DNA of 29,765 nt from Paramacrobiotus metropolitanus (taxonomy: Eukaryota; Tardigrada; Eutardigrada; Parachela; Macrobiotidae), in assembly GCF_019649055.1 (NCBI RefSeq), contig NW_026570611.1, positions 1-29,765 of the forward strand, in the 5' to 3' direction. How positions within the stretch are numbered: position 1 is the stretch's first letter; the number at the start of each line of letters is the position of its first letter. A program made the translations under genes and the position numbers. The notes beneath the pieces were generated by a model. It did not search any database. It saw only the letters and a program-made list of their open reading frames with translations, and was not told the origin of the DNA. This document shows, one piece after another, positions 2,111-25,567 of the stretch.

Positions 2111-2668
2111 TTGTTAGCAAACGCACCACATTTGAAACTCGCTTGCAAGCGAGTTGTATGAATTAGCGACGACTATTTGTACAAACGGACAAGTGCCGTG
2201 CCATTCGTTTGTGCTAAGCATTTGAATTACTTTCGCAAAAACGTGTATCATCTTGATACATCTGTTTTTCTCAATAGCCTTTAACTTTTGAATTCTGTAA
2301 ACATGGTAGGAAGTACGTACGCCGGCATAGCATACCACGGAAGAAAAATGCAAAATTGTAGTTGTGTGCTGTCTGTAGTTCGTTTTTAATTGTGATCCAT
2401 CAGTTTTACTTTTACGACATCGGGCCATTAAGGGTTCGGACTGATCCCATGTTATCGAATAGATGTTGATGGGCAAAGTTACTTATGTGGCTTTTTTAAT
2501 AAATTCAATACATATGTACTGTTCTGCAGGTTCCTTGCTCGTAAAGATTTCAGTGTCACCTTTCTGCATCAATCGTTGACCGGCGTACGAGCAAGAGCTA
2601 TACGAGTATCGTTCGACTACCCTAGCTAGCTTTCAAATCTTGTTGCGGTCGGGAGTATTTCTGTCACA
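2111..2668. promoter_or_regulatory. Upstream region of the F-box gene with palindromes
   Basis: This gap should hold the promoter of the gene at 2669, but I see no convincing TATA box. It contains a perfect 20-bp palindrome at 2136-2155. It also has a 10-bp inverted repeat (CTTGCTCGTA at 2534-2543, TACGAGCAAG at 2586-2595) ending 73 bp before the start codon. A 120-codon minus-strand open frame covers 2114-2476, without splice or homology support. Confidence 0.4.
2136..2155. repeat. Perfect 20-bp palindrome
   Basis: AACTCGCTTGCAAGCGAGTT reads identically on both strands with no spacer. It lies just past the end of the decayed F-box copy. It may be a binding site for a dimeric factor or a chance or recombination product; nothing here decides which. 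Confidence 0.7.
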
Positions 2669-5269
2669 ATGACTGCAAGAAGCGCGGGACCGTCGTTTCG
2701 ACGCCTGTTGGCGGGCCCCAAGGGAATCAACTACCTGAACACCGTGGTGGTGTGGATCGAGAACTGGACATATTGGTTGGGATACATCCAGGACATTTGG
2801 GAAGAATACGTCTACGTTGATTTCGACTGCTCCACAGTCGGTGCCTGCTGGATTCACTCTTCGTGCGTGTGGCCGCTGCAGTACTGGCAAGACAGCCCAG
2901 GCTACTCTTTTCGTAATTATCGATCGACACCGATATTTGTCGCGCTGCGCGATGAGCCCGGCGGACCTTTGCGTTTCCGCTCAGCTGTGGCTGTATGGGA
3001 TTCGGATAGGGAATGCGGCAAGACATACATCCGTGCGGAAATAGTGGAAGAAGGCAGCGAATCTCCGGTTGCGGGCGGCGTGGAAGTAGTGGACCACTGG
3101 CAAGCGATCAGCCGGCTGCCCTTTGACGAGCCTTCGCTGCTGGGCCGAACTGAAGGACTGCTGTACATTAAGCACGTGATTCCCTTGACCAGAGCGCAGT
3201 TGGCCGTCAACACAGCTGCCGACGCAGCACGCCTAATTCAAGAGCTTCTTGACGCGTACAGAACACAGGCATCGGTGCATCTGTTGAATGCGGACTTACG
3301 TAAGCTTTGTCGCTTTCATCTACGCATCGGCGAGGATGGATGCACGGTGATGATTATCGCCAACCGGACCGACAGCGACGCCACGGAGCGGACGCAGCAA
3401 ATGTTGTTGCGCATCTTGGAGAACCATGCGTCTGCCACAGGACATCCGCCGGCAATGGCTCACATTAGCGATAGCACGGGAATGCCGTGCGCCGTACAGT
3501 TAGGTCAGTGTTTGATGAGTGGACTAAGTATGTACATTATGGACTGCACATTAAGTACACTGAATGCCTGCCTACATTAGCCACGGGACCATGGAAGCAG
3601 GGAGCCGCATCGCGTGCATTCGTTAGCCAGGACACTGCCAACTGGCGAAACCGTGCTTTTGCACTGCAATGTAGTGAGTAAGTGTATGCTGTTGTCCCAC
3701 AGGTATGGAGTCCGACACCGTCGACCAAACAGCCGCCCTCTCTCACCTTCCGCCGGAAATCTCCCTGGCCATTCTGACTGGTCTGGACGTGCACAGTCAA
3801 GCGAACGCTAAACGGTAATGTCGAGCGCTGCTGCTCTACAACTGTACCTGGTTGTTTTGCCGTGTTCGTGGCCGTGTATATCTACCGAGTAATCAGTCCT
3901 TTTAATTTACCGCACAGAATGCTAGATGAATCGTTGACCAAGTTTACCAGACTGCAATGCTGCAAAAATTGAAGTTACTCGTAAGATGCTGCTGCGCGCT
4001 TTTGCCAGGTGTTCACTTCTCAAAAGTAAAATTGCAATTGAGGGACATGATTGTAACAAAACGGTAATAGTAATCGAAAAGGTCACAGTAGCATACGTTA
4101 ATCATGTAAAATGTCTGGTAGAGCAAACGTCTAAGCGGTTTCAGTGTTTTACATAGTACACTCTCGAGTAACACTGCTAAATTTAGTAATCGATCTAGAC
4201 GTGAGCAGAAATAAAAGTATCAGCAGAGTCAGTTGCACACTGCAGTGTTCCGGTAGGGTGTGCGGCCTGTGGCAACGGATACTGAGCGATCCCTGCTCGG
4301 GGGAGCATCTCACAGTTCTGGTGGAAAACGTAGAAGCGACCGAAAGCGATGATCACCGGTGCTATCATACAGCCTGGATGCTCATCCGAACGATAACAGC
4401 CGCCACGAGGAGCGTGGCCATCGTAGCTCGCCAAGATAACCCGCACAGTAAAGGCATCGACAACCGTGCCATGATGTGGGAGTGGCACATCTTGGACTTA
4501 GCAATAAACATTAAATGGGCCATGAACATCATGCCGCCGTGGGTGGTGCTAAAATCCTTTCAGTTGGAATATAACAATACGGGCTATGTTGATGATAATC
4601 TGGAATTTCTACGATTACATTGTCAACGATTCGTCATGCTCAACTGTAGACTGTCAAAATGGTTCGCTTATTCGCTGTGGAGAGTCATCTACGATCCGTC
4701 GATATTTCCTCCACTGATACCGCTACCGGCACGCGAGCGACGCTTCCTCGTTCCCTTCGACTTACGCAGACAGAAGTTGCCCATTGACAATATGGAAATC
4801 CGATTAGACAAGCTGGTTATGCAGTGTGCGGACGAGCGGGAGCACTTCATCAGTCGCTTCATGTGGGGCGTAGACGCGCACTGTGTGCCCATCCCGGAGG
4901 AAGTGTACAGCAGAGTGGCGAAGGTGCACGCGCGCTGGCAGCGCAGTCTGGCGTACCCAGCTGAATGGCAGACCATCCGCAAGTACCTCAGCATGTAAGT
5001 GCTTCCCTCGCTCAGTCGTACGTAGTAACTGTTATGTCGTTTGGAACCGTGGCCCTTTAACAGATACACCGAGCATCTGCAGCTGCTTAGGTATTGTCTG
5101 CAGGTACAGCGGATTCCATGCCGACGGCAGTCCACGGACGTGGGACGATGTGGACCTCAGGAGGATGGACGTGCGCCAACTGAGCAAGCAGGCGCTCCTC
5201 AGCATCGACGCGGCGTTTGGCGTTCGGCCTTTTACCGGGAGTTCTGTCAGCACTGCGAACCAATCTTAA
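2669..5269 (+). CDS. F-box protein with lineage-type N- and C-terminal domains
   Basis: Exons 2669-3503, 3703-3814, 4257-4994 and 5104-5269 join with matching phases (835+112+738+166 = 1851 nt, 616 residues, stop TAA). Donors are AG|GTCAGT, CG|GTAATG and AT|GTAAGT. Residues 291-332 form an F-box: it begins LPPEISLAILTGLD and ends VCGLWQRIL, split by the third exon boundary. F-box proteins generally bring substrates to SCF ubiquitin ligases through Skp1, so that role is inferred. Residues 45-110 hold a Tudor/Agenet-like pattern (VYVDFD..., WIHSSCVWPL) that recurs in the decayed copy upstream. The C-terminal part (residues 333-616) has no LRR or WD repeats that I can see. It ends with a TWDDVDLRRMDVRQLS motif that may be family-specific. 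Start chosen as the first ATG of the open exon; further 5' non-coding exons are possible. Confidence 0.8.
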
Positions 5270-6138: not shown

Positions 6139-7092
6139 TTGACAGCTATCAGGCGTACGAGTCTGCGCGTGGTGCTCCGCCCATATGTGGCGTATTGCAG
6201 ATTTCGACCAGGAAACGGCGGATTTCCGACCCGCAACGGTGGACAGCCATTTGAAACCGACACCGACACCGACACCGGTAAACTCGTGGTTTTAGGTCGA
6301 CTTTGGTCGGAAATAGGTTGAATCTTGACTTCTCAACGGCCAAAATTAATTCCTAACACTAAATTTAAACTTTCAACGGATAGAAGTAAATTCTTTCGGA
6401 GAAACCGACCCAAAATTTTACTTTTGTCGGAGAAACCGACCCGTTAGGTCGACAAACTCAGCTAACAAAGGCTAACCGACAACAGGACGGAAATTGCTGC
6501 CTTTCTCATTTCTAACGGCGTTTTAACCGTCAGAAAAATTCTAAAATTCCTAAAAACTATTTCTAACGTATTAGAAATCAAAATTTCGACCAAATAAACT
6601 TTTTGGCCAACCGAAAATCAATTATTTTTCTTGCAAAAAATAGCGCGAAAATTCACAAATTTCCTTGTGACGTCAGAACGACCGGATTTTAGTACTTAGA
6701 GGGCAGCCAATCAGCGTGCAGAGGAAACTTCCCATAGCTTAACATAGGCGTAATTCATCGTTTTTGTGACTTTTGCACGCGGCTCGCATTCTGTGGCGTA
6801 TGCAGTAAAGTGCAAGACCACTTAAACCTGTGACGTCATACTGGTCAGCTCAGTAGTACAGGACGTACATTCAGTATACAGAGTCATCAACAGACAACAA
6901 TAACATCTCGTCGGACGATCCTGACCCACGGAAGTTCCTAAACAAAAGGAAGTTCCTTATTTCATCGAACATCCCCAAAGAAGGGATTGTTCGATTTAAC
7001 GGTTAGAAACAACAAGTTTTTAAGGTTCAACCGGAACTGACCTGCTTTAAACCTCGATTCGATAACAATGTCGAATCCCAGGAAGAATAAAT

Positions 7093-7129
7093 ACGCCAGG
7101 GAGTATAACAACAGTTACTCCCGGCGTAT
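7093..7129. repeat. Short hairpin in the CGAC-rich element
   Basis: TACGCCAGGGAGTA (7093-7106) pairs with TACTCCCGGCGTA (7117-7129) across a 10-nt loop with a single bulged base. It lies in the non-coding leader part of the element, upstream of its coiled-coil frame. Confidence 0.55.
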
Positions 7130-7857
7130 ATTCGTGACGGGCCCATACCAACTGCGGCACGCCGGTAGGGAATGAAGTCAGTTGTCCTCAACGGAATCAG
7201 TCAAGTGGGCTGAGGCAAGGGAGAAACGCAACGAGCGGATCCTCCTCGCCGACTCAAATCCAACATCGGGCGACAGTTTCTAGGACGCTTGGGATAAAAC
7301 ATTCCTTGAGCCCCAGGCTGACTCGGCAGCCCCTCCCACCCGACCGGAGGGATGCGGTTAAGCTGCGACAACATTGTCTTATGCCGGTCACGAGTGCTCA
7401 TACGACGCACCGACCACTACAGACCCAACCGAAGGAACTCAAGTGTGCTCACAGGAAGCTTAAGACCCGGTAGCGACAACGACAGCCGCCGAGGCCGGAC
7501 GCGAATCACCCAACTCGACGAGTGAAGCACAGAAGCCGACCTCCGAAGTCGGTCAACATCAACCGACAAAGGAAGTCGACCAACAGAAGGTCGACCAACC
7601 ACTTATCAAAGAGGTCGGCCAGAAGTACCCGATCAAGGAAGTGGGTGTGAAGTCTATCAATATTGTAGTTAATGTTTATTAATTAACCACACACGAGTAC
7701 GACAACTGAATGAATGATTGAAGTATAACACTAGTAAATACAGTAGTACTACACTGACAACATTGCTACGACAATACGCAATTATGTACGTACACTACAG
7801 TCGGTCAAACCCAACCGACCAGCCTGGAACAGAAATCAACCGTCAACAAGTCGGAAA

Positions 7858-9080
7858 TTGGAGTCCAGCCGACCAAACCAACGGTCAGAAAGGAAGACAT
7901 CGAGGCACCGCCACGAAGCGGCCTTCATCCAGGTGGATCACCGACCAACATACCGGCATCTATCGAAAGAGCCATTTCTCCGTCAAGTCGATCTTCGCCG
8001 ACCGAAGGCAAATCGACTCGAGCAACAGAAGCTCAACCAACGGGTGAAGTCGACTACGTCGTCGACAAGTCGACCTGTCGACTTATCGAGGAAATCAATA
8101 AGTCGCCCTGTCAGCGTACCAATGAAGTTAACACCACCCATGCTCGAACTGGGCGGATCGGGCAGAGAGGGAACTCCGTCACCGACTGGCGAAGTTATCG
8201 GCCCGACGGAATCACCTCCCAACAGTACGGACGGTCTCTTCCAAACGCCAGAGAAGTCCCACATGGACATCACAGATACCAAGCCAGTGCACTTGAGTAT
8301 ACGGCACGGAAGTCGATTTCGGCAACACCGCCGGAGAAGATGCAGGATATCAACAAACTCCGAGAACGATGTCACAACTGATCACACAGATCGTGTTGGC
8401 CGACAAGATTGTGAACTCAACGGAAGTTTCGTGCGCACAGTCGGTAGAAACCGATCGAACGGAAGAAGTGGAAAACTGAGACGGCAGCGGCCAACCAAGG
8501 CAATTGCCGACCAACAACGCGAAATCGACCGACTGAGAGCCATACTTAAGCGCGTCGACGGACTATGTCGACATGACATTGACGAAGTAGCCTTACTTAA
8601 TGGCAAGTTGGATCGGTCAACGGCTGCCGTCATCTAACTGAAGAGACAACTTGCCGACACGGAAAAGGAACTAGCCGATATACAAACAGCACTGGTCGCC
8701 TCAGAACAGGCAGCCGGACAGTTCCATGAAATGCTGAACCGAGCTAATAAAAAAGCCGAAGTCTATCGAAACGAAGTCGATCGGTACATAGTCAAAATGC
8801 AGCATGCCGACAACGAGGTCGACCAGCTCCTGCTACTGACTGACCGACTACAAGCGGAGTTAAAAATCCTTCTGGCAAGGAGCCGACAACAAACGCCGAC
8901 TCACTCTGGCCATATCCGACCTCCACTGACCAGAAGACAGCCATCGCCGACTTGGAAGAAGCTAACACACAGTTAGCCGACCAAGTAAACGGATTGAACG
9001 ACTACCTCAAAGAGGAGCAGAAACTCCGAGCCGAGCCAGGACGGTTTATGGAACGAAGTGGTTCCCACCCGGAGATTTGA
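7858..9080 (+). pseudogene. Broken coiled-coil reading frame inside the element
   Basis: One + frame is open from 7858, interrupted by a single TAA at 8635-8637, and continues in the same frame to about 8890. Between 8880 and 8893 it must shift by one base to continue as another 40-odd residues up to a TGA just before 9082. Around the TAA the peptide is a clear heptad-type coiled coil (QQREIDRLRAIL, then KRQLADTEKELADIQTAL, then NEVDQLLLLTDRLQAELKIL). Upstream, 8280-8480 shows protein-like stretches in different frames, suggesting more indels. The N-terminal half is Ser/Thr/Pro and Arg rich. Coiled coils occur in structural proteins and in capsid-like ORF1/gag proteins of retroelements; nothing visible separates these options. 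Confidence 0.5.
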
Positions 9081-9415: not shown

Positions 9416-12313
9416 AGTTATTTATATATTGTACATTCGCTGTGTTGGAGCGGATTTATTACTGGATTTCCCGAGTATTACTCCACCTTCTCCTTCCCCA
9501 CGACGGCGGTGCGGCGCTGGAGCGACGAAGTGGTCCCCTTGAGCGATTTCCGCAGCGCCCTACCGCCAGCCGGCGACCCCTTCGAATGCCGCTACGTGAA
9601 CCTGCAGCACCCCTTCGATCTCTTGCAAAACATCGCCAAGAGCGTCTCGCTGACTACTTTCGTGGTGCTGCTGCGCTGGCTGTGGGAGGAAGTCGCCGTC
9701 TTCCACCTGCGCGCTCTGAACCTTCTCCAGCTGCTGGAAACGTAGCACGAATATGTGGCGCCGTCGCCCGTCATGCTGCAGCTGTGGACCGGCGCCGCCG
9801 CGATTCCTTTTGACCAATGGGCGCCCCAGGTCACGGAGTTGGTGCGCCGGAGGATGGTGAAGTTCCTCAATGTGACTGCCCCCTGCAGGCGGCCAAGGGT
9901 AAGTTGGAATTTGCTTTTGCCATTAATTGGTTATCTGAACCAGTTTCTTTGCATTTATTTCTAATCATTTTCTCATTAAATGGTTTTAATGATTTACGTT
10001 TTTGTAGCTTATCACTTTTGTAATTTACAGCTTATCATTGATGGCTAATTTGTGCGACTTCCCGCTCCAGGTGGCCAGCGGTGAGTGACATTTTCTTCTC
10101 CAGCAATGGATTTTCTGAACCAATTAAATTAGTTTTATTTTGGTCATTTGTGTATGCACTGATTTTAATAATGTACGTTTTTGTAGTACATTACTTTTGT
10201 AATTTACTGCTTATTATTGGTGGATAATTTGTGCGACTACCCGCTCCAGGTGGCCAGCGGTGAGTGTGACATTTTTTCTCCATTAATCGATTTTCTGAAC
10301 CAATTAAATTAGTTTTATCTTGGTCATTTTCTTATGCACTGATTTTAATAATTTATGTTTTTGTAGTACATTACTTTTGTAATTTACTGCTTATTATTGG
10401 TGGGTAATTTGTGCGACTGCCCGCTCCAGGTGGCCAGCGGTGAGTGTGACATTTTTTCTCCATTAATCGATTTTCTGAACCAATTAAATTAGTTTTATTT
10501 TGGTCATTTTCTTATGCACTGATTTTAATAATGTATGTTTTTGTAGTACAGTACTTTTGTAATTTACTGCTTATTATTGGTGGGTAATTTGTGCGACTGC
10601 CCGCTCCAGGTGGCAAGCGGTGAGTGCGACATTTTTTTCTTCATTAGTTGATTTTAGTAGGCCAATTAATTTAGATTTGTTTTGGTACTAGTAATTTTTT
10701 CATGCATTAATTTTACTAATTTATGTTTTTGTAGTACAGTACTTTTGTAATTTACTGCTTATTATTGGTGGGTAATTTGTGCGACTGCCCGCTCCAGGTG
10801 GCAAGCGGTGAGTGCGACATTTTTTTCTTCATTAGTTGATTTTAGTAGGCCAATTAATTTAGATTTGTTTTGGTACTAGTAATTTTTTCATGCATTAATT
10901 TTACTGATTTATGTTTTTGTGGTACATTACATTTGTAATTTACTGCCTATTATTGGGGGGTAATTTGTGCGACTGCCCGCTCCAGGTGGCCAGCGGTGAG
11001 TGCGACATTTTTTTCTTCATTAATTGATTCTAGTAGGCCAATTAATTCAGATTTATTTTGGTACTAGTAATTTTTTCATGCATTAATTTTACTAATTTAT
11101 GTTTTTGTGGTACATTACATTTGTAATTTACTGCCTATTATTGGTGGGTAATTTGTGCGACTGCCCGCTCCAGGTTGCCAGCGGAGATTGTGACCTTTTT
11201 CCTCCAATAACTGATTTTCTAAACTGATTTATTTGCATTTAATTACTATTTTTTCGTAAGTTATTTTTAATGATTTATGTTTGTTAGTGTAATATTTTTC
11301 TAATTTGCTGCTAACTATTAGTGGCTGATTTGTGTGATTGCCCGCTGCAGGCGGCCAACGGTGAACTGAAAAGTTTTTCTCTATTAATTGATTTTTAAGC
11401 CGATTTATTTGCATTTATTACTCGAGTCTGTATTTCTGTCCGTTTTCGTACAAATTATTTTTATTATTTTATGTCTTTTTAGTATGCTATTTTTGCAATT
11501 TACTGCTTATTATTGGGTGCAGGTTTGCAGATCTTGTTGTGGAAATGTAAGTTTGGGCATCATTTTTCTTGAATGTTCTCTGCATATTTTATACCGTTTA
11601 ATAAATAATTTAATTGCTTGCTGTTTTTCGATTATGTAGTTTATGAACTATGCAAGCTCTGAGTTGTATTAAAAAATAATGTTTTAATAATTTTTTTGCA
11701 GTTTGAACTTTCTGAACCTTTTTGTTTAATTTTGAATAAATTATTGGCGCTCGAGGAAAAAAATCGCGAAGTTAAATTTGTCTTGGATGTTCCTTCGCCA
11801 GATGGCTAGCAGGTTTTTTGTAAATATCAAATGTTGCTGCATTATTCGTGAATTCCTAATTTTCTTGACAGATATATTTTCTGGAGATTGTTCTATGAAT
11901 TTATTTTTTCTTACAAAGTTCTTGAATAAAATAATTTGATTAATTGAATAAGGCGGACTGTTGAGTGTGCATTGTTTTGTTTTCCATGCTGCAGATGGCG
12001 TGGCCAGCATCAGCTGCGAAACGCGGCGTTTTCAGCAGATCGGGCGGATTGTGGAGGAATTGGAGTGCCGCCTGCAGCAGCGCACCTGGCTGAACCGGCG
12101 CACCTACCGCAAGGCCGTGCTGCAGAAGCGGCCGGGGACGCTGCTGGGTCTGGAGGAGCAGTGGCGGCTGGAGTGCCAGGTGGCCGAGCGAATCGCCGAG
12201 ACTGCCGGGCGGCCGGTGGACCTGCACTTCCGCCTCACGCTCCTCCACAACGCCGTCGAGACGGAGCGGCTCTGCATCTTCCTCGCCGCCGAGGAGTCCT
12301 CGAATGATCTCCA
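9416..12313 (+). CDS. Unidentified multi-exon protein, with disruptions
   Basis: Proposed exons are 9416(or later)-9898, 11523-11546 (a 24-nt microexon), 11702-11812 and 11995-12313. Their donors include GTAAGT after 9898 and after 11546, and strong acceptors precede 11523 and 11702. The first three are phase 0. The first exon encodes a well-formed helical region rich in Leu, Trp and Val (LLRWLWEEVAVFHLRALNLL) but has an in-frame TAG at 9743-9745. The third exon (LALEEKNREVKFVLDV) needs one extra base near 11806-11811, beside another TAG, to join the fourth in phase 1. The fourth is Arg/Glu-rich and helical (IGRIVEELECRLQQR). It ends either at a donor CCA|GTAAGA or at the overlapping TAA (12315-12317). 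No start codon is visible, and I do not recognise the family. It is either a pseudogene or a real gene with assembly errors. Confidence 0.5.
9870..11360 (+). repeat. Intronic tandem array of ~180-bp units with repeated 5' splice sites
   Basis: About nine units lie head to tail. A ten-base block (GTGGCCAGCG and variants) preceded by CGCTCCAG starts at 10071, 10250, 10430, 10610, 10798, 10986, 11174 and 11351, so spacings are 177-188 bp. The first equivalent is the end of the coding exon at 9873-9898. Units 2-7 are followed by an intact GTGAGT donor; unit 8 reads GAGATT and unit 9 GTGAAC. Most units also carry a TTTTTGTAG acceptor-like site, mutated to GTGG in two late units. Each unit thus resembles a copy of 'exon 3' end + donor + early intron'. 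Later units share a T-rich variant segment, showing local homogenisation. Confidence 0.85.
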
Positions 12314-13271
12314 GTAAGAACGCATTTTCAACTGTTTCAGCACAATAGTTACGCGAGAGATTCGCTTCAATAGGAAATTGATTTTTGGTGTTTTTTTCTT
12401 GAATTTTTATCGCGTATTTATCCGATTATCTTCTGTATGTATAGCCAAGTTTACTTTTTTTCCAAAAATCGCTATTTTATTCCGTACGCAAACAGCAGAT
12501 TTTCCACGATCATAATAATTGTACGCTGAAGCGTACACCGTTACATTCGTTAAGTAACGGACCAACGAGGGTATCATTTATCGCCGACTGACCATGAAAA
12601 CAGCCACGACAGTATTTTTCTTAGTAACGTTTTATGACGGCAATGTGTACGCTTCGCATGCCGTATACAACATGGAACAAAAAAACCACAGCCCCTTTTA
12701 AAGAATACGCCAGTCAAAAAAATAAACCTTCCCGCTAGATCTAAAAACATCCATAAAAACACCGTCCAGTACTAAAAAAATATTATAACACAGTCGGAAA
12801 AAGATCCATACACAGATTCTGTTGACGTTTAATAACCACAGTCGAGACGAATTTTCGAATTCTAGACTTGAGAAATTAATTCTGTTAATTAACGCCCGCT
12901 CAAATCCTTCCGCAGTTCAATGGCGCTGCAACAAAAAAGCCACAATTAACACTAAGAAAACAATGTCCTTGATCATAGCTCAATAAGAAATTTAGAAACT
13001 CCTGATGATTTCAATTTAATCCGACTTTTAACAGAAGTAAATATCAATTAAAAATTCATTTCTGAAATAGCAATTTTGGCGCTCGATCGGGATGCAATAA
13101 TTATCGAAAAATAGAAATTCACAACGACGTGAAAAAGAGAGGGCGAGAAAAATTAATTATCCATAATAAAGCCAGAAAAACTCAAAATGCTATAAAATAA
13201 TGTATTTTATAAGAGAGAAATAAAGGGAAAGTAAAGTAAAGGAAACTAAAGTAAAAAGTAACAGCGAGAAA
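12314..13271. other. AT-rich 3' flank or intron
   Basis: No coding segment is evident. An AATAAA at 12721-12726, about 400 nt after the possible TAA at 12315, could be the poly(A) signal if the gene upstream ends there. From about 13200 the sequence becomes strongly A-rich and leads into the tandem repeat that follows. Confidence 0.45.
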
Positions 13272-13891: not shown

Positions 13892-16646
13892 TTACAGAAA
13901 AACTTCCGCATCCACATCCATTTCCGCCACTTCGTCCTCTTCTAACATGTTTTGGTCCAAAAACTGCGGGATAATCACTGGAGATTCTAAGAAAAACAGT
14001 AAAAACGGTCAGAATGGCTAGCAGAATAACAGCTGAAAAATCCCAGATATCACTGCTGGTTATACCTGGAGCGGCACGGACGCACGCCACACTATTCTGA
14101 TACAACCGCTCGTCCACAATCGCATTAGGCTGCAGGTATGAAATGCCATTTCCTTCATTATTGAACGTTCTGCAAACAAACATACATCAGCTGCACACGT
14201 ACACATCACTGACGAAATGTAGCTTACATTATTGTAAGGTGTCAGTACACGTTGGGTTTACGGGAACACTAAACATATGTCGTATACGGCAGTACGATTG
14301 TAGTGCACTGGCTTCTAATGCTTAAGCACACATTGTAAATGAAACCTGCGCCTCCTTCCGTCGCGGCTCAGTTATCTGATTATCTCATCCGTGGCGTAGC
14401 GCGCCGCAGTATGCACAAATAGCCCAACACAATAAATCTCGGATTAATCGCAGCTGCAGCGCAAACTTGCTTAAGAAACATGCTTTGACTGTACTTACTG
14501 TCTTTTGTTGCCCATGGCTTTGGGAATGTCGCGAAGTCCCGGAAGGGGCTGGATGCGGATACGGAATAATCCTGATTCTGTGGGAAACCATAAATTGGGA
14601 GCGGTAATCTGCCCAATCTGATCATCCAAAACGTGCAGACGGAAGCGCTGAATCAGCTCGTTTACATGTCTATTGCGGTCCATAAGAAAATCAGCCGCTT
14701 CCTGTTCGTCTACAAACCAATGACACTTTAACACGTGCCGGTCATTACAACAAGCACTGCAGGACTTACTGATCTGAAATTCTAAGTCCTGTCGGGGCAA
14801 CTCCAGCGGACCACCGGGAACCGCGGGATTGGCCGGAGGTTGGACGCCGGGGAGACGTTGGCGCGCGCCACCACCGGCACCTGGCGGCAGACCACCCGGG
14901 GGCGCCCCCTGCATCCGTCCCTGTACCGGTTGTCCGCGCAAGATGGGAGGCGCCGCGGGCGGTCCGCGCAGGATGGGAGGCGCCGCGGGCGGTCCGCGCA
15001 GGATGGGAGGCGCCGCGGGCGGTCCGCGCAGGATGGGAGGCGCCGCGGGCGGTCCGCGCAGGTTGGGAAGCAGCGCCCACTGGAAGAGAGGCAGTGCCGG
15101 CGGTGGCCACATCAGCGGAGGCATTGCTGGCGGTGCCCACAGAAAGGGAGGCGGGACCGGCGGTCCGCCCAGGATCACACCTGGCGGAGGCGGTTCCGGA
15201 GGACGTGGAGTTCCCTGTGTCACCAGCATGATAGGGGGGTGCGCCGAGGCCGGATACGGACGGATCTGACCGCGGATATCCGGGAAGAACCGGGTCGGCG
15301 GGGGCGGGGCCGAGGTCGGCGACGGGCCGCCGAAAGCGCGCCCAAACTGGAAATAGCCGGATGATGAGGGAGCGGCCTGGGTCTCCATTCGGGGCGGCCC
15401 TCGACCAGCCGGATTTTGGTGAACATCGGTGCCCGGTGTCCGGGGGCGCAGGCTGGAGTGGCGCTGTACCACCTGGACAGCGTCCGTCGGCTGGGAGCTT
15501 CCTGGATGGCCGGGGAACGGATCGGACCTGATGGCAATAATTGCGCTAGTTTATTATGACTCGCATGTCTGAACATATGCAAAACTGTCTGCTCAACGAG
15601 AAACTGAATATATTTGTACGCAGGTATATGAAGGAGCGTAATTTGTAAGTACGCATAAATTCACCAACTGATTTCGTTAATGACTTTGAATTTATTAATT
15701 TTCATAACAGACAGTCGCTACGCGGTATCACTGGTATTTACTGTACGCGTGTCTTAATTGCTGTCAATGTGCGAAAAGTAAAGGTGAAAGAAACGGTTTA
15801 ATTGAAACATCAATCCGGTATAAATGTAGTTTAATGTACTTTATCAGGCACATTAATTCTGATAAATATTGTACTCGTACTTTACACGGTAATACGAGTC
15901 ACGAACGATACTAGTCGTGTCGTACCAGTACAGTAATTAACGTTAAAAGGTAACAAATCTAATTCATGAAATCTTTTAACAACACATTAAATAATCGAAA
16001 TAATTATTCTAATTATTATTAACTTCTAATTATTAATCGGAATAATTAATATTAATCGAATAATTATAACTGGCACTCACGTAATATGATAATCTTAAAT
16101 TCAGTACTGCAGCCAAGAAAATTTACTCGTGAACAGCGGTATAATCGACCTTCACCGAACTGCCGAATATTCATTTTTTATATTATTATTTATACTGCAT
16201 AAATTTGGTACACGTACCGGTTGTCCACCTGTGCAACGGGGAAGGGTTCCATCGGGGTGGAGCGAAGCGGCTGCGGTCCCGGCCCACTCCCGGGCGGATA
16301 TCCCGACGTCATGCGCATTCCCTGATCGCCGAGCACGCCGGCCCCAGCGTTCCCGCCGCCCGACTGCTGCGCGGGATAGAAGGAGGCGTGCTCAGAGGGC
16401 GATGGCGTCGGGGCCGACGGCGGTGGCCGGCCAGCAGTGGAGGCGCGCCCAGCAACCGGGGCATTCGGTGCCGGACGAGGCGGTCCCGTGGGAGAAGGGC
16501 TGCGGCTGCGGCTGCGGCTGCGAGCGCGCCGCAGGGGGGAAACCGGACCTCCGAGGATCGTCGCCTGGCGAACAGCAGTGCGGGCCGTGGGGGTCTCGTG
16601 CCGCGGGGAGTGGGGAGGGACGCTGGCCAGGGCTCCCAGTGCTAAT
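13892..16646 (-). CDS. Proline-rich protein with RS-like stretch and acidic tail (5' incomplete)
   Basis: Read on the minus strand, exons are 16646-16218, 15527-14770, 14709-14499, 14169-14066 and 13986-13892. All junction phases agree (1597 nt with one leading base; 531 residues plus TAA). The first exon is Pro/Ala/Ser rich with an RSRSRSRSPSP stretch. The second is dominated by proline and includes four copies of GPPAAPPILR. The third holds a helical segment (NEQEAADFLMDRNRHVNELI) and a compact region ending GLRDIPKAMGNKRQ. The last two give TFNNEGNGISYLQPN and an acidic end (LEEDEVAEMDVDAEVFL). Introns are 690, 60, 329 and 79 nt. Low-complexity Pro and RS regions suggest a scaffold or RNA-processing factor, which is inference. 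No start codon was found; an upstream exon past 16647 is likely, and that acceptor has only a weak pyrimidine tract. Confidence 0.65.
14941..15060 (-). repeat. Coding minisatellite, 4 x 30 bp
   Basis: Four head-to-tail 30-bp units are essentially identical; only the first differs, at its first base. They lie within the proline-rich gene and each encodes the decapeptide GPPAAPPILR. Near-identity at silent sites shows recent expansion or continuing homogenisation. The unit is a multiple of three, so copy number can change without breaking the frame. Confidence 0.9.
16497..16532. repeat. GGCTGC hexamer run encoding the RS stretch
   Basis: About four to five GGCTGC units on the + strand read as alternating Arg and Ser codons on the minus strand. 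They make the RS-like stretch of the proline-rich protein. Confidence 0.75.
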
Positions 16647-24110: not shown

Positions 24111-24129
24111 AGATCAAGGCATTCCAACC

Positions 24130-25567
24130 ATGGATAGCGACTATTCTGGTGGCGGACGTTCGTTCGGTCCGCGGCGGCAGCTTCCAGGGTACGCCGACCC
24201 GGGATGAAGTCGGGTGGATTCCGGCTGCATGTCGGCGGCATCGCCGACAGGGTGAGCGAAAACAGGTCCGTCAGACCTTCCAGAAGGTGGGCAACGTCAA
24301 GGACCTGTGGATGTCCACTAACAGCGACTCGCCGCGTTTCGGCTTTGTGGTCTTCGAGGACCAGGGTGATGCGGAGAACGCCATCAGCAATGTCAGCGGA
24401 CAGGAGCTGGGCGGATCCGAGCTGCGTGTGGCCTGGGCCAAGCCGCGTGACCAGCGTAGCGGCGGGGGACGTCGTGGAGGATACGGCGGTGGCGGCGGCT
24501 ACGGAGGCGGTGAGTTGCCGAAAATTCGATTTTTTTTGAATTTTTTATTGAATTTATCGGTGAAATTTTCGAGTTAATATTTAGCCGTTCAGATTTTGAA
24601 ATTACATTTATTTAATCACAATTTTGAATTCATTTTGATGATTTAATTGCCGAATTTTTCCCGTAAGAAGAATTATTTTTTAAATTTATTCAATTTAAAT
24701 GCCGATTTTCTGTTGATTTTATTTTGGTCATAATTCAGTAGTGCAGTAATTTTATTGCTGAATTGTTTGGGTAGGATTTCAGAAATTCAAATTTCGAATT
24801 TTTCTTAATTTTCGTGTACTGACTTCCGCATAAAATTTCCGTGAAATCGATTAATTTTCCCATGGTGCTGCGATAAAAATTTGTCAGATTAATCTTAGGC
24901 CACGCACATATTTTAGCCGTATTTCTCATGGTTCGGGTAAATTAAATCTAAACAATTCCGGAATTTTAAAAATATTATTTTTTTATTGCATTTGAAAATT
25001 CGTCTAAAATTGATCAATTTAAGATGAAGAAAATTTGAATGAAAACTCAAGCCGGTGATCGATTTAATCAGTATTTATTCTACGCTTATTCAGCGCTTTG
25101 TTAATGTGAATGATAACGTGTTACGAGATGGGATATTCTGGAGATACTTTCTGAATTTATTCTGGTTGATAATACGTGCATCATCCGGTGTCCTCAGTGG
25201 CCTCAACCGGTGGTTGTTGTCTTGTGTAGGCGGCGGGTATGGTGGCGGCGGCGGGGGATACGGAGGCCGCAGTGGAGGTTACGGTGGCGGAGGGGGCGGC
25301 GGCGGCGGCGACCGCTCGTGCTACAAATGCGGCCAGTCGGGCCACATTTCGCGTAACTGCCCGGAGAACGACGGGGGCAGTGGCGGCGGCGGCGGAGGCT
25401 ATGGCGGCCGCAGCGGGGGATACGGCGGCGGCGGGGGATATGGCGGCGGCGGCGGCCGGGGAGGTGGCGGCGGCGGCGGGGACCGTTCGTGCTACAAGTG
25501 CGGCCAGTCGGGGCATATTTCCCGCAACTGTCCGGAGAACGACGGCGGTGGCCGTGGCGGTTATTAG
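24130..25567 (+). CDS. Glycine-rich RNA-binding protein: RRM plus two CCHC zinc knuckles
   Basis: Exons 24130-24509 and 25230-25567 are joined by a 720-nt intron in matching phase 1. The start ATG lies in an ideal context (CCAACCATGG) and opens [20 protein letters not shown]. The RRM follows, with RNP2 LHVGGI and RNP1 RFGFVVFE, then RG/GGY repeats. Two knuckles each read [14 protein letters not shown] (C-X2-C-X4-H-X4-C), separated by Gly-rich spacers; the second is a 171-bp duplication of the first. Such proteins bind single-stranded RNA and act in mRNA processing, stability or translation. The RRM needs one extra base near 24199-24204 and another near 24262-24266 to be read through; with both, the protein is 239 residues. 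The rest is intact and the knuckles are well preserved, so assembly errors look likelier than a dead gene. Confidence 0.8.

Follow-up and report, generated by a model that had tools for sequence, protein, structure and literature searches.

In the tardigrade Paramacrobiotus metropolitanus, a tandem array of ~180-bp units multiplies the junction between an exon (exon A) and its intron. With a probability of roughly 0.57, we favour the reading that this junction was duplicated and is removed together with an intron running from 9899 to exon D at 11995, with its copies acting as decoys or as donors used on occasion. Positions refer to the window, the whole stretch of 29,765 nucleotides that was analysed; the exons and the array lie on its plus strand.

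On this reading, a segment of ~180 bp that joined the final 28 nt of exon A to its 5′ splice site and the beginning of the intron was probably duplicated in tandem and amplified by unequal exchange, with the oldest-looking copies now at the edges and the interior younger and homogenised. Splicing would most likely excise the whole array with the intron, pairing the exon A donor at 9899 with the exon D acceptor, whose AG ends at 11994. The GTGAGT hexamers of the six interior units would then be decoys, sites of intermediate splicing or alternative donors of minor use.

An exon–intron junction repeated in tandem

The repeat, its boundaries, its signals and its pattern of identity can be read directly from the DNA. 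Homology begins at 9871, inside exon A, and extends to about 11516, covering eight full units of 177–188 bp and a partial ninth; TRF finds a match at 9920–11419 with a period of 188, 8.2 copies and a score of 1705. When delimited by cutting at the donor position, the full units cover 9899–11360 and measure, in order, 182 bp (u0, 9899–10080), 179 bp (u1, 10081–10259), 180 bp (u2, 10260–10439), 180 bp (u3, 10440–10619), 188 bp (u4, 10620–10807), 188 bp (u5, 10808–10995), 188 bp (u6, 10996–11183) and 177 bp (u7, 11184–11360); the partial unit u8 (11361–11516) runs on for 156 bp. The core pattern TGYGAYTGCCCSCTSCAGGYGGCCA occurs nine times at up to three mismatches, with 9 of 9 matches inside the array (mean of 100 shuffles: 0.00) and the tail of exon A from 9871 as the first of them; the pattern was derived from the array copies themselves, and the count is therefore descriptive and not a discovery. 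The first-pass annotation had described about nine units of ~180 bp, each repeating the exon end, and the eight full units, the partial one and the nine cores bear this out.

Interior units u1–u6 are 82–98% identical among themselves. Unit u0 shares 75–79% identity with these; for u7 and u8 the figure is 67–73% against all other units, and the edge units (u0, u7 and u8) span 67–79% overall. The edge copies of the core, in the tail of exon A and at 11333, have the bases CTGCAGGCGGCCAA in common, which are absent from the interior. A homogenised interior with divergent edges is the usual outcome when unequal exchange recurs within an array; the edge units here are probably old and the interior ones homogenised, as in an array grown by that process. 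The graded divergence (67–98%) would also speak against a simple assembly artefact, although the exact interior copy number could still be wrong.

Two short repeats were seen around exon D. One 9-mer of the array core, GTGGCCAGC, is found again at 12000–12008, where it lies five bases into exon D and in the frame of that exon; its five matches in the window comprise four in the array and this one (shuffle mean 0.12), a recurrence that may hint at a shared origin of the array and exon D. The 8-mer CAGATGGC, noticed by eye, stands at 11799–11806 and at 11992–11999, flanking the intervening stretch like a direct repeat around an insertion.

Splice signals within the array

Donors were scored with a metazoan donor matrix and ranked among the 1663 GTs on the plus strand of the window; acceptor ranks are positions among 1447 AGs. 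The parent donor of exon A, GTAAGT (9899–9904), ranks 2 and outscores its array copies: the GTGAGT hexamers that open u1 to u6, at 10081, 10260, 10440, 10620, 10808 and 10996, are tied at ranks 7–12. Seven strong donors are present within 1.1 kb. The donor had been described as decayed in the last two units, and indeed it is lost in u7 (GAGATT at 11184) and weak in u8 (GTGAAC at 11361, rank 97). As in the human IFI6 gene discussed below, a consensus 5′ splice site recurs in tandem units; here it stems from an exon/intron border and is present as six GTGAGT and the parent GTAAGT, with two copies lost or weak. Core and donor recur at every coordinate given by the first-pass annotation, including the six GTGAGT sites from 10081 to 10996, and its central claim that the array multiplies an exon end together with its donor is well supported.

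Acceptor-like signals recur as well. TTTTTGTAG stands before the five blocks that begin at 10008, 10187, 10367, 10547 and 10735 (u0–u4) and is replaced by TTTTTGTGG before 10923 and 11111 (u5 and u6), in agreement with the earlier description of an acceptor-like TTTTTGTAG in most units and its decay in later ones. These TTTTTGTAG sites are moderate acceptors (ranks 58–169). Close to them in score is the CTCCAG placed eleven bases ahead of each donor, with ranks 35–108 for the sites ending at 10070, 10249, 10429, 10609, 10797 and 10985. The best AGs of the array, at 10835, 10647 and 10103 (ranks 4, 5 and 7), are neither TTTTTGTAG nor CTCCAG sites and sit 22–27 nt downstream of a donor. The acceptor of exon D ranks 34, to be compared with rank 30 for the acceptor TGTAG at 25229 in an RRM gene, according to our own gene model.

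Reading frames of exons A and D

Exon A is held by an open frame at 9416–9898, whose 5′ end is that of the frame and may differ from that of the exon; its GC3 reaches 0.88. The main frame (9416+3n) meets a TAG at 9743–9745 and is open again beyond. Exon D, at 11995–12314, follows the acceptor CTGCAG and has a GC3 of up to 0.97; its 3′ end is uncertain, placed by a TAA at 12315 or by a donor just before. Prompted by the TAG of exon A, we considered an alternative genetic code and rejected it: no consistent picture emerged when single stops were taken as sense codons, and the ORFs 7747–8637 and 8638–8976 are separated by a TAA, not a TAG.

For the final 28 nt of exon A (9871–9898), which are homologous to the unit cores, two readings compete. 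F0 continues the main frame and ends in phase 0, whereas F1 encodes CDCPLQAAK and ends in phase 1, as exon D requires. The unit cores, too, are open in F1. This reading needs a one-base shift near 9869 with respect to the exon A frame used to ~9868, about where homology with the array begins. Codon usage over the last nine codons favours F1 by 4.1 nats, or by 4.6 when exon A is excluded from the training set. This margin is weak: a different frame comes out ahead in 199 of 787 leave-one-out control windows from eight presumed coding stretches, and does so by at least 4 nats in 70 of 787. Variable sites of the core are distributed 0/3/7 over F1 codon positions 1/2/3 (columns 43–69), by our own tally of a stretch that was picked after viewing the alignment.

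Frame changes also seem to occur in the RRM gene, at 24111–24300, where the RRM residues likely switch frame at ~24260 and a glycine-rich upstream start in the third frame is possible. We read these changes, which look as if single bases were missing, as base errors of the assembly or as marks of a pseudogene. The shifts, one likely and one possible, have the same direction as the one F1 needs, making base errors in the assembly a plausible cause of the shift near 9869.

A possible further exon (FELSEPF...) starts at 11702, after an acceptor-like AG at 11701 (rank 62 of 1447). It is open for 35 codons, and its frame has a codon-usage score of 3.6 nats over 33 codons.

Exon-like blocks and the joins they allow

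All eight full units contain a block of 73 nt. The first-pass annotation had it open in one frame before GTGAGT, which is the case in each of the six such units; the block of u7, at 11288–11360, has a stop in the frame that is open in the others. An acceptor, an open block and a donor occur together in the five TTTTTGTAG blocks, at 10008–10080 (u0, with AG before, GTGAGT after and one stop-free frame) and, with the same signals and frame joins, at 10187–10259 (u1), 10367–10439 (u2), 10547–10619 (u3) and 10735–10807 (u4), as well as in one 64-nt block that starts in u8 (11483–11546, AG before and GTAAGT after). The remaining units have lost a site. A stop-free frame is weak evidence of use: of 1765 overlapping 42-mers drawn from presumed non-coding parts of this window, 662 would leave that frame open as well, as would 89 of the 295 in the T-rich subset. 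Codon usage in the AT-rich part of the interior block gives its highest score, 4.5 nats, in the main frame of exon A, versus −1.6 and −3.2 in the others.

We assembled joins that start after the TAG of exon A (from 9746 in F0) and run to 12314, using the six blocks that have both AG and GT, five of 73 nt and one of 64 nt. In F1, skipping the array (9898 to 11995) gives a join that is open and in the exon D frame. With one block included, the join is out of frame for each of the six, and no combination of two to four blocks is open and in frame (0 of 50). F0 makes the opposite prediction for the first two cases: skipping the array meets a stop, and one block leaves the join open and in the exon D frame in 6 of 6 cases; two to four blocks fail here too (0 of 50 combinations). 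Block lengths are of the form 3n+1, and for this reason none or two blocks give a frameshift in F0. Since the blocks are homologous, the agreement of all six amounts to about one observation, and the rough chance that phase (1/3) and openness (662/1765) both fit is about one in eight. Single inclusion in F0 is equally compatible with the 10-nt stretch from CTCCAG to GTGAGT, again in 6 of 6.

The inclusion of one copy is the sole version of use with a testable frame logic, and it depends on the frame in which exon A ends. That the reading frame enforces exactly one copy, the array being a redundant or splice-counting device and not a source of protein variants, we regard as highly doubtful.

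Conservation along the unit

Changes were counted by parsimony on a fixed tree, drawn by eye from the identity matrix. The 73-nt block accumulates 0.45 changes per column versus 0.75 in the intron part (u0–u7), or 0.49 versus 0.95 when u8 is included; a rank test gives p = 0.003 and p = 0.0001, respectively, for columns that are not independent. Circular placements of a block of the same size are equally conserved in 29 of 180 cases (u0–u7) and in 17 of 180 (with u8). The likelihood-best segment, columns 135–193, lies off the splice borders, and its score was reached in 1 of 200 column shuffles. On codon positions 1/2/3, the AT-rich part of the block shows 7/12/4 changes and the core 0/4/6 (u0–u7 in both). 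The coding-type evolution expected of mutually exclusive exons is thus not seen in the AT-rich part of these blocks among u0–u7. The donor hexamer is free of changes among u1–u6, as are 39 of 174 six-column windows. Core and donor taken together carry 4 changes in 39 columns of the interior units, against a mean of 10.2 over placements, and 29 of 179 placements are as low. The unit is unevenly conserved, yet there is no clear sign of copies being maintained as exons or donors.

An RNA hairpin that masks the donors was also considered and found unsupported. ATTTACTGCT pairs with AGCGGTGAGT in the predicted folds of four of the eight units (at 10199, 10379, 10559 and 10747), with z-scores of +0.37 to −1.97 and a fold that varies by unit; two-sided changes are present in 1 of 21 consensus pairs, and in 2 of 32 over whole units. 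Local folds of the eight units are not clearly stronger than those of shuffles (z of −0.16 to −1.97). The donor of exon A is unpaired in its predicted local fold.

Similarity searches and surroundings of the array

No tblastn-confirmed relative was found for an 80-aa piece of exon A in viral and prokaryotic contig collections or for exon D in viral contigs; the 23-base core pattern has 0 matches in viral contigs, and the array DNA no match among plasmids, searches that say nothing on eukaryotes. Exons A and D have no Pfam match at E up to 1. Among ten ORFs scanned against Pfam, only RRM_1 (24 kb) and zf-CCHC (25 kb) exceed their curated cut-offs, and a LexA match in ORF 2630–3577 is below its own. 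The window holds no tRNA genes and nothing at the Rfam gathering threshold.

The RRM gene carries CCHC zinc knuckles at 25.2–25.6 kb. The ORFs 1591–1980, 2630–3577 and 4135–4995 are reminiscent of tardigrade proteins, and the first two, with 40% identity over 55 residues, are apparently relatives. A 30-bp repeat at 14932–15068 (4.6 copies, 98% matches) lies in a long proline-rich ORF on the minus strand, 14495–15550. The region 7001–9000 is A-rich, with an AT skew of ~+0.3, and contains the ORFs 7747–8637 and 8638–8976 in one frame with the TAA between them; Pfam matches of the latter are limited to sub-cut-off coiled-coil. This region is possibly a decayed mobile element.

Origin and possible use of the array

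Duplication of the junction and its removal with the intron would account for homology that starts inside the exon, for the difference in identity between edges and interior, for the rank of the parent donor and for the open F1 join; codon usage in F1 and the 0/3/7 and 7/12/4 distributions point the same way. Against this reading stand the shift that F1 requires, the weak codon margin, and the lower variability of the block together with its constant length of 73 nt, which could mean constraint. We infer the duplication history, the choice of splice sites and the lack of a selected function. Another reading, a dead or misassembled locus, seems unlikely; exon A would then belong to a pseudogene, or base errors would be combined with a wrong copy number, and splicing within the array would be without consequence. 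The in-frame TAG at 9743, the possible shift near 9869 and the likely and possible one-base shifts of the RRM gene at 24.1–24.3 kb all fit such a locus, and interior copies that are up to 98% identical could have been miscounted. However, the units differ in a graded manner (67–98%), unlike the product of simple copying, and a strong GC3 bias is kept in both exons.

Evidence of use is weak: changes in the AT-rich stretch of the block are not codon-like, conservation of the interior donors is ordinary, and the TTTTTGTAG sites are outscored by other AGs of the array. The copies might still give rise to cryptic exons, to stepwise intron removal or to nested alternative 5′ splice sites. One such use, which we consider quite unlikely, is an array from which one exon of many is taken, with exon A read in F0 to its end and exactly one 73-nt block (or the 64-nt block at 11483) placed before exon D. 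It would require no shift at the end of exon A, and it agrees with the F0 joins, where only a single block is open, and with the best codon score of the AT-rich interior block, also in F0. But changes in that AT-rich part have no third-position preference, the encoded blocks are nearly identical and choice among them would diversify little, their homology reduces the frame agreement to about one observation with a chance near one in eight, the 10-nt stretch fits as well, and the TTTTTGTAG sites are modest. Regulated nested 5′ splice sites, with splicing or expression tuned by donor–acceptor distance or by copy number, are in our view improbable. Seven strong donors in 1.1 kb, a GTGAGT unchanged across u1–u6, few changes in core and donor, and the precedent of repeat units acting as donors in IFI6, as recounted in a passage of PMC4526556, argue for them. 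Nevertheless, an array donor used without an upstream acceptor would leave 182 nt or more of AT-rich intron sequence in the mRNA; windows and placements as conserved as the donors are common, and donor-masking folds are not clearly above shuffles. Duplication of the junction, with excision of its copies, remains the reading we prefer.

Relation to known systems

Tandem exon duplication with mutually exclusive use is a known arrangement. The array resembles it in its row of similar blocks with acceptor and donor, of lengths not divisible by three, but differs in that its blocks are near-identical and their AT-rich part is without coding constraint. Minisatellites, for their part, vary in copy number between individuals, and the splice-donor minisatellite unit of IFI6 is reportedly 12 bp long. 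That is much shorter than the ~180 bp found here, where the unit also carries acceptor-like sites and intron sequence. In human IFI6 (6-16, G1P3), according to the account in PMC4526556 (citing Turri, Cuin and Porter 1995), two downstream units of the repeat act as donors, which results in three mRNA species. In both cases tandem repeat units supply several splice donors; their use is reported in IFI6, whereas here the donors are predicted from the sequence.

Two other systems concern the birth of introns. As described in a part of PMC3629103, two introns in fission yeast SPOG_01682 and SOCG_00815, attributed to tandem duplication, are built of tandem repeats and span several 24-nt units. A passage of PMC4974935 likewise traces an intron of potato RdRp to a duplication that carried intron/exon structure. 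Tandem copies with splice signals create alternative donor/acceptor pairs there as here. In those accounts, however, a new intron was gained, as proven by relatives, whereas here the junction of what is apparently a pre-existing intron was multiplied about nine times.

The array belongs to a known kind, and what distinguishes it is a long unit that carries donor, acceptor-like site and intron together. A ~180-bp repeat of such a kind was absent from the titles and abstract openings among the matches listed, which does not show it to be unpublished.

If the copies are used, a single intron would offer as many as seven near-equivalent donors one after another. It would then be a natural test of how a spliceosome selects between nearly identical sites that lie at different distances, and of whether splicing is tuned by the number of copies. 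If the copies are not used, strong donors can multiply inside an intron and be ignored.
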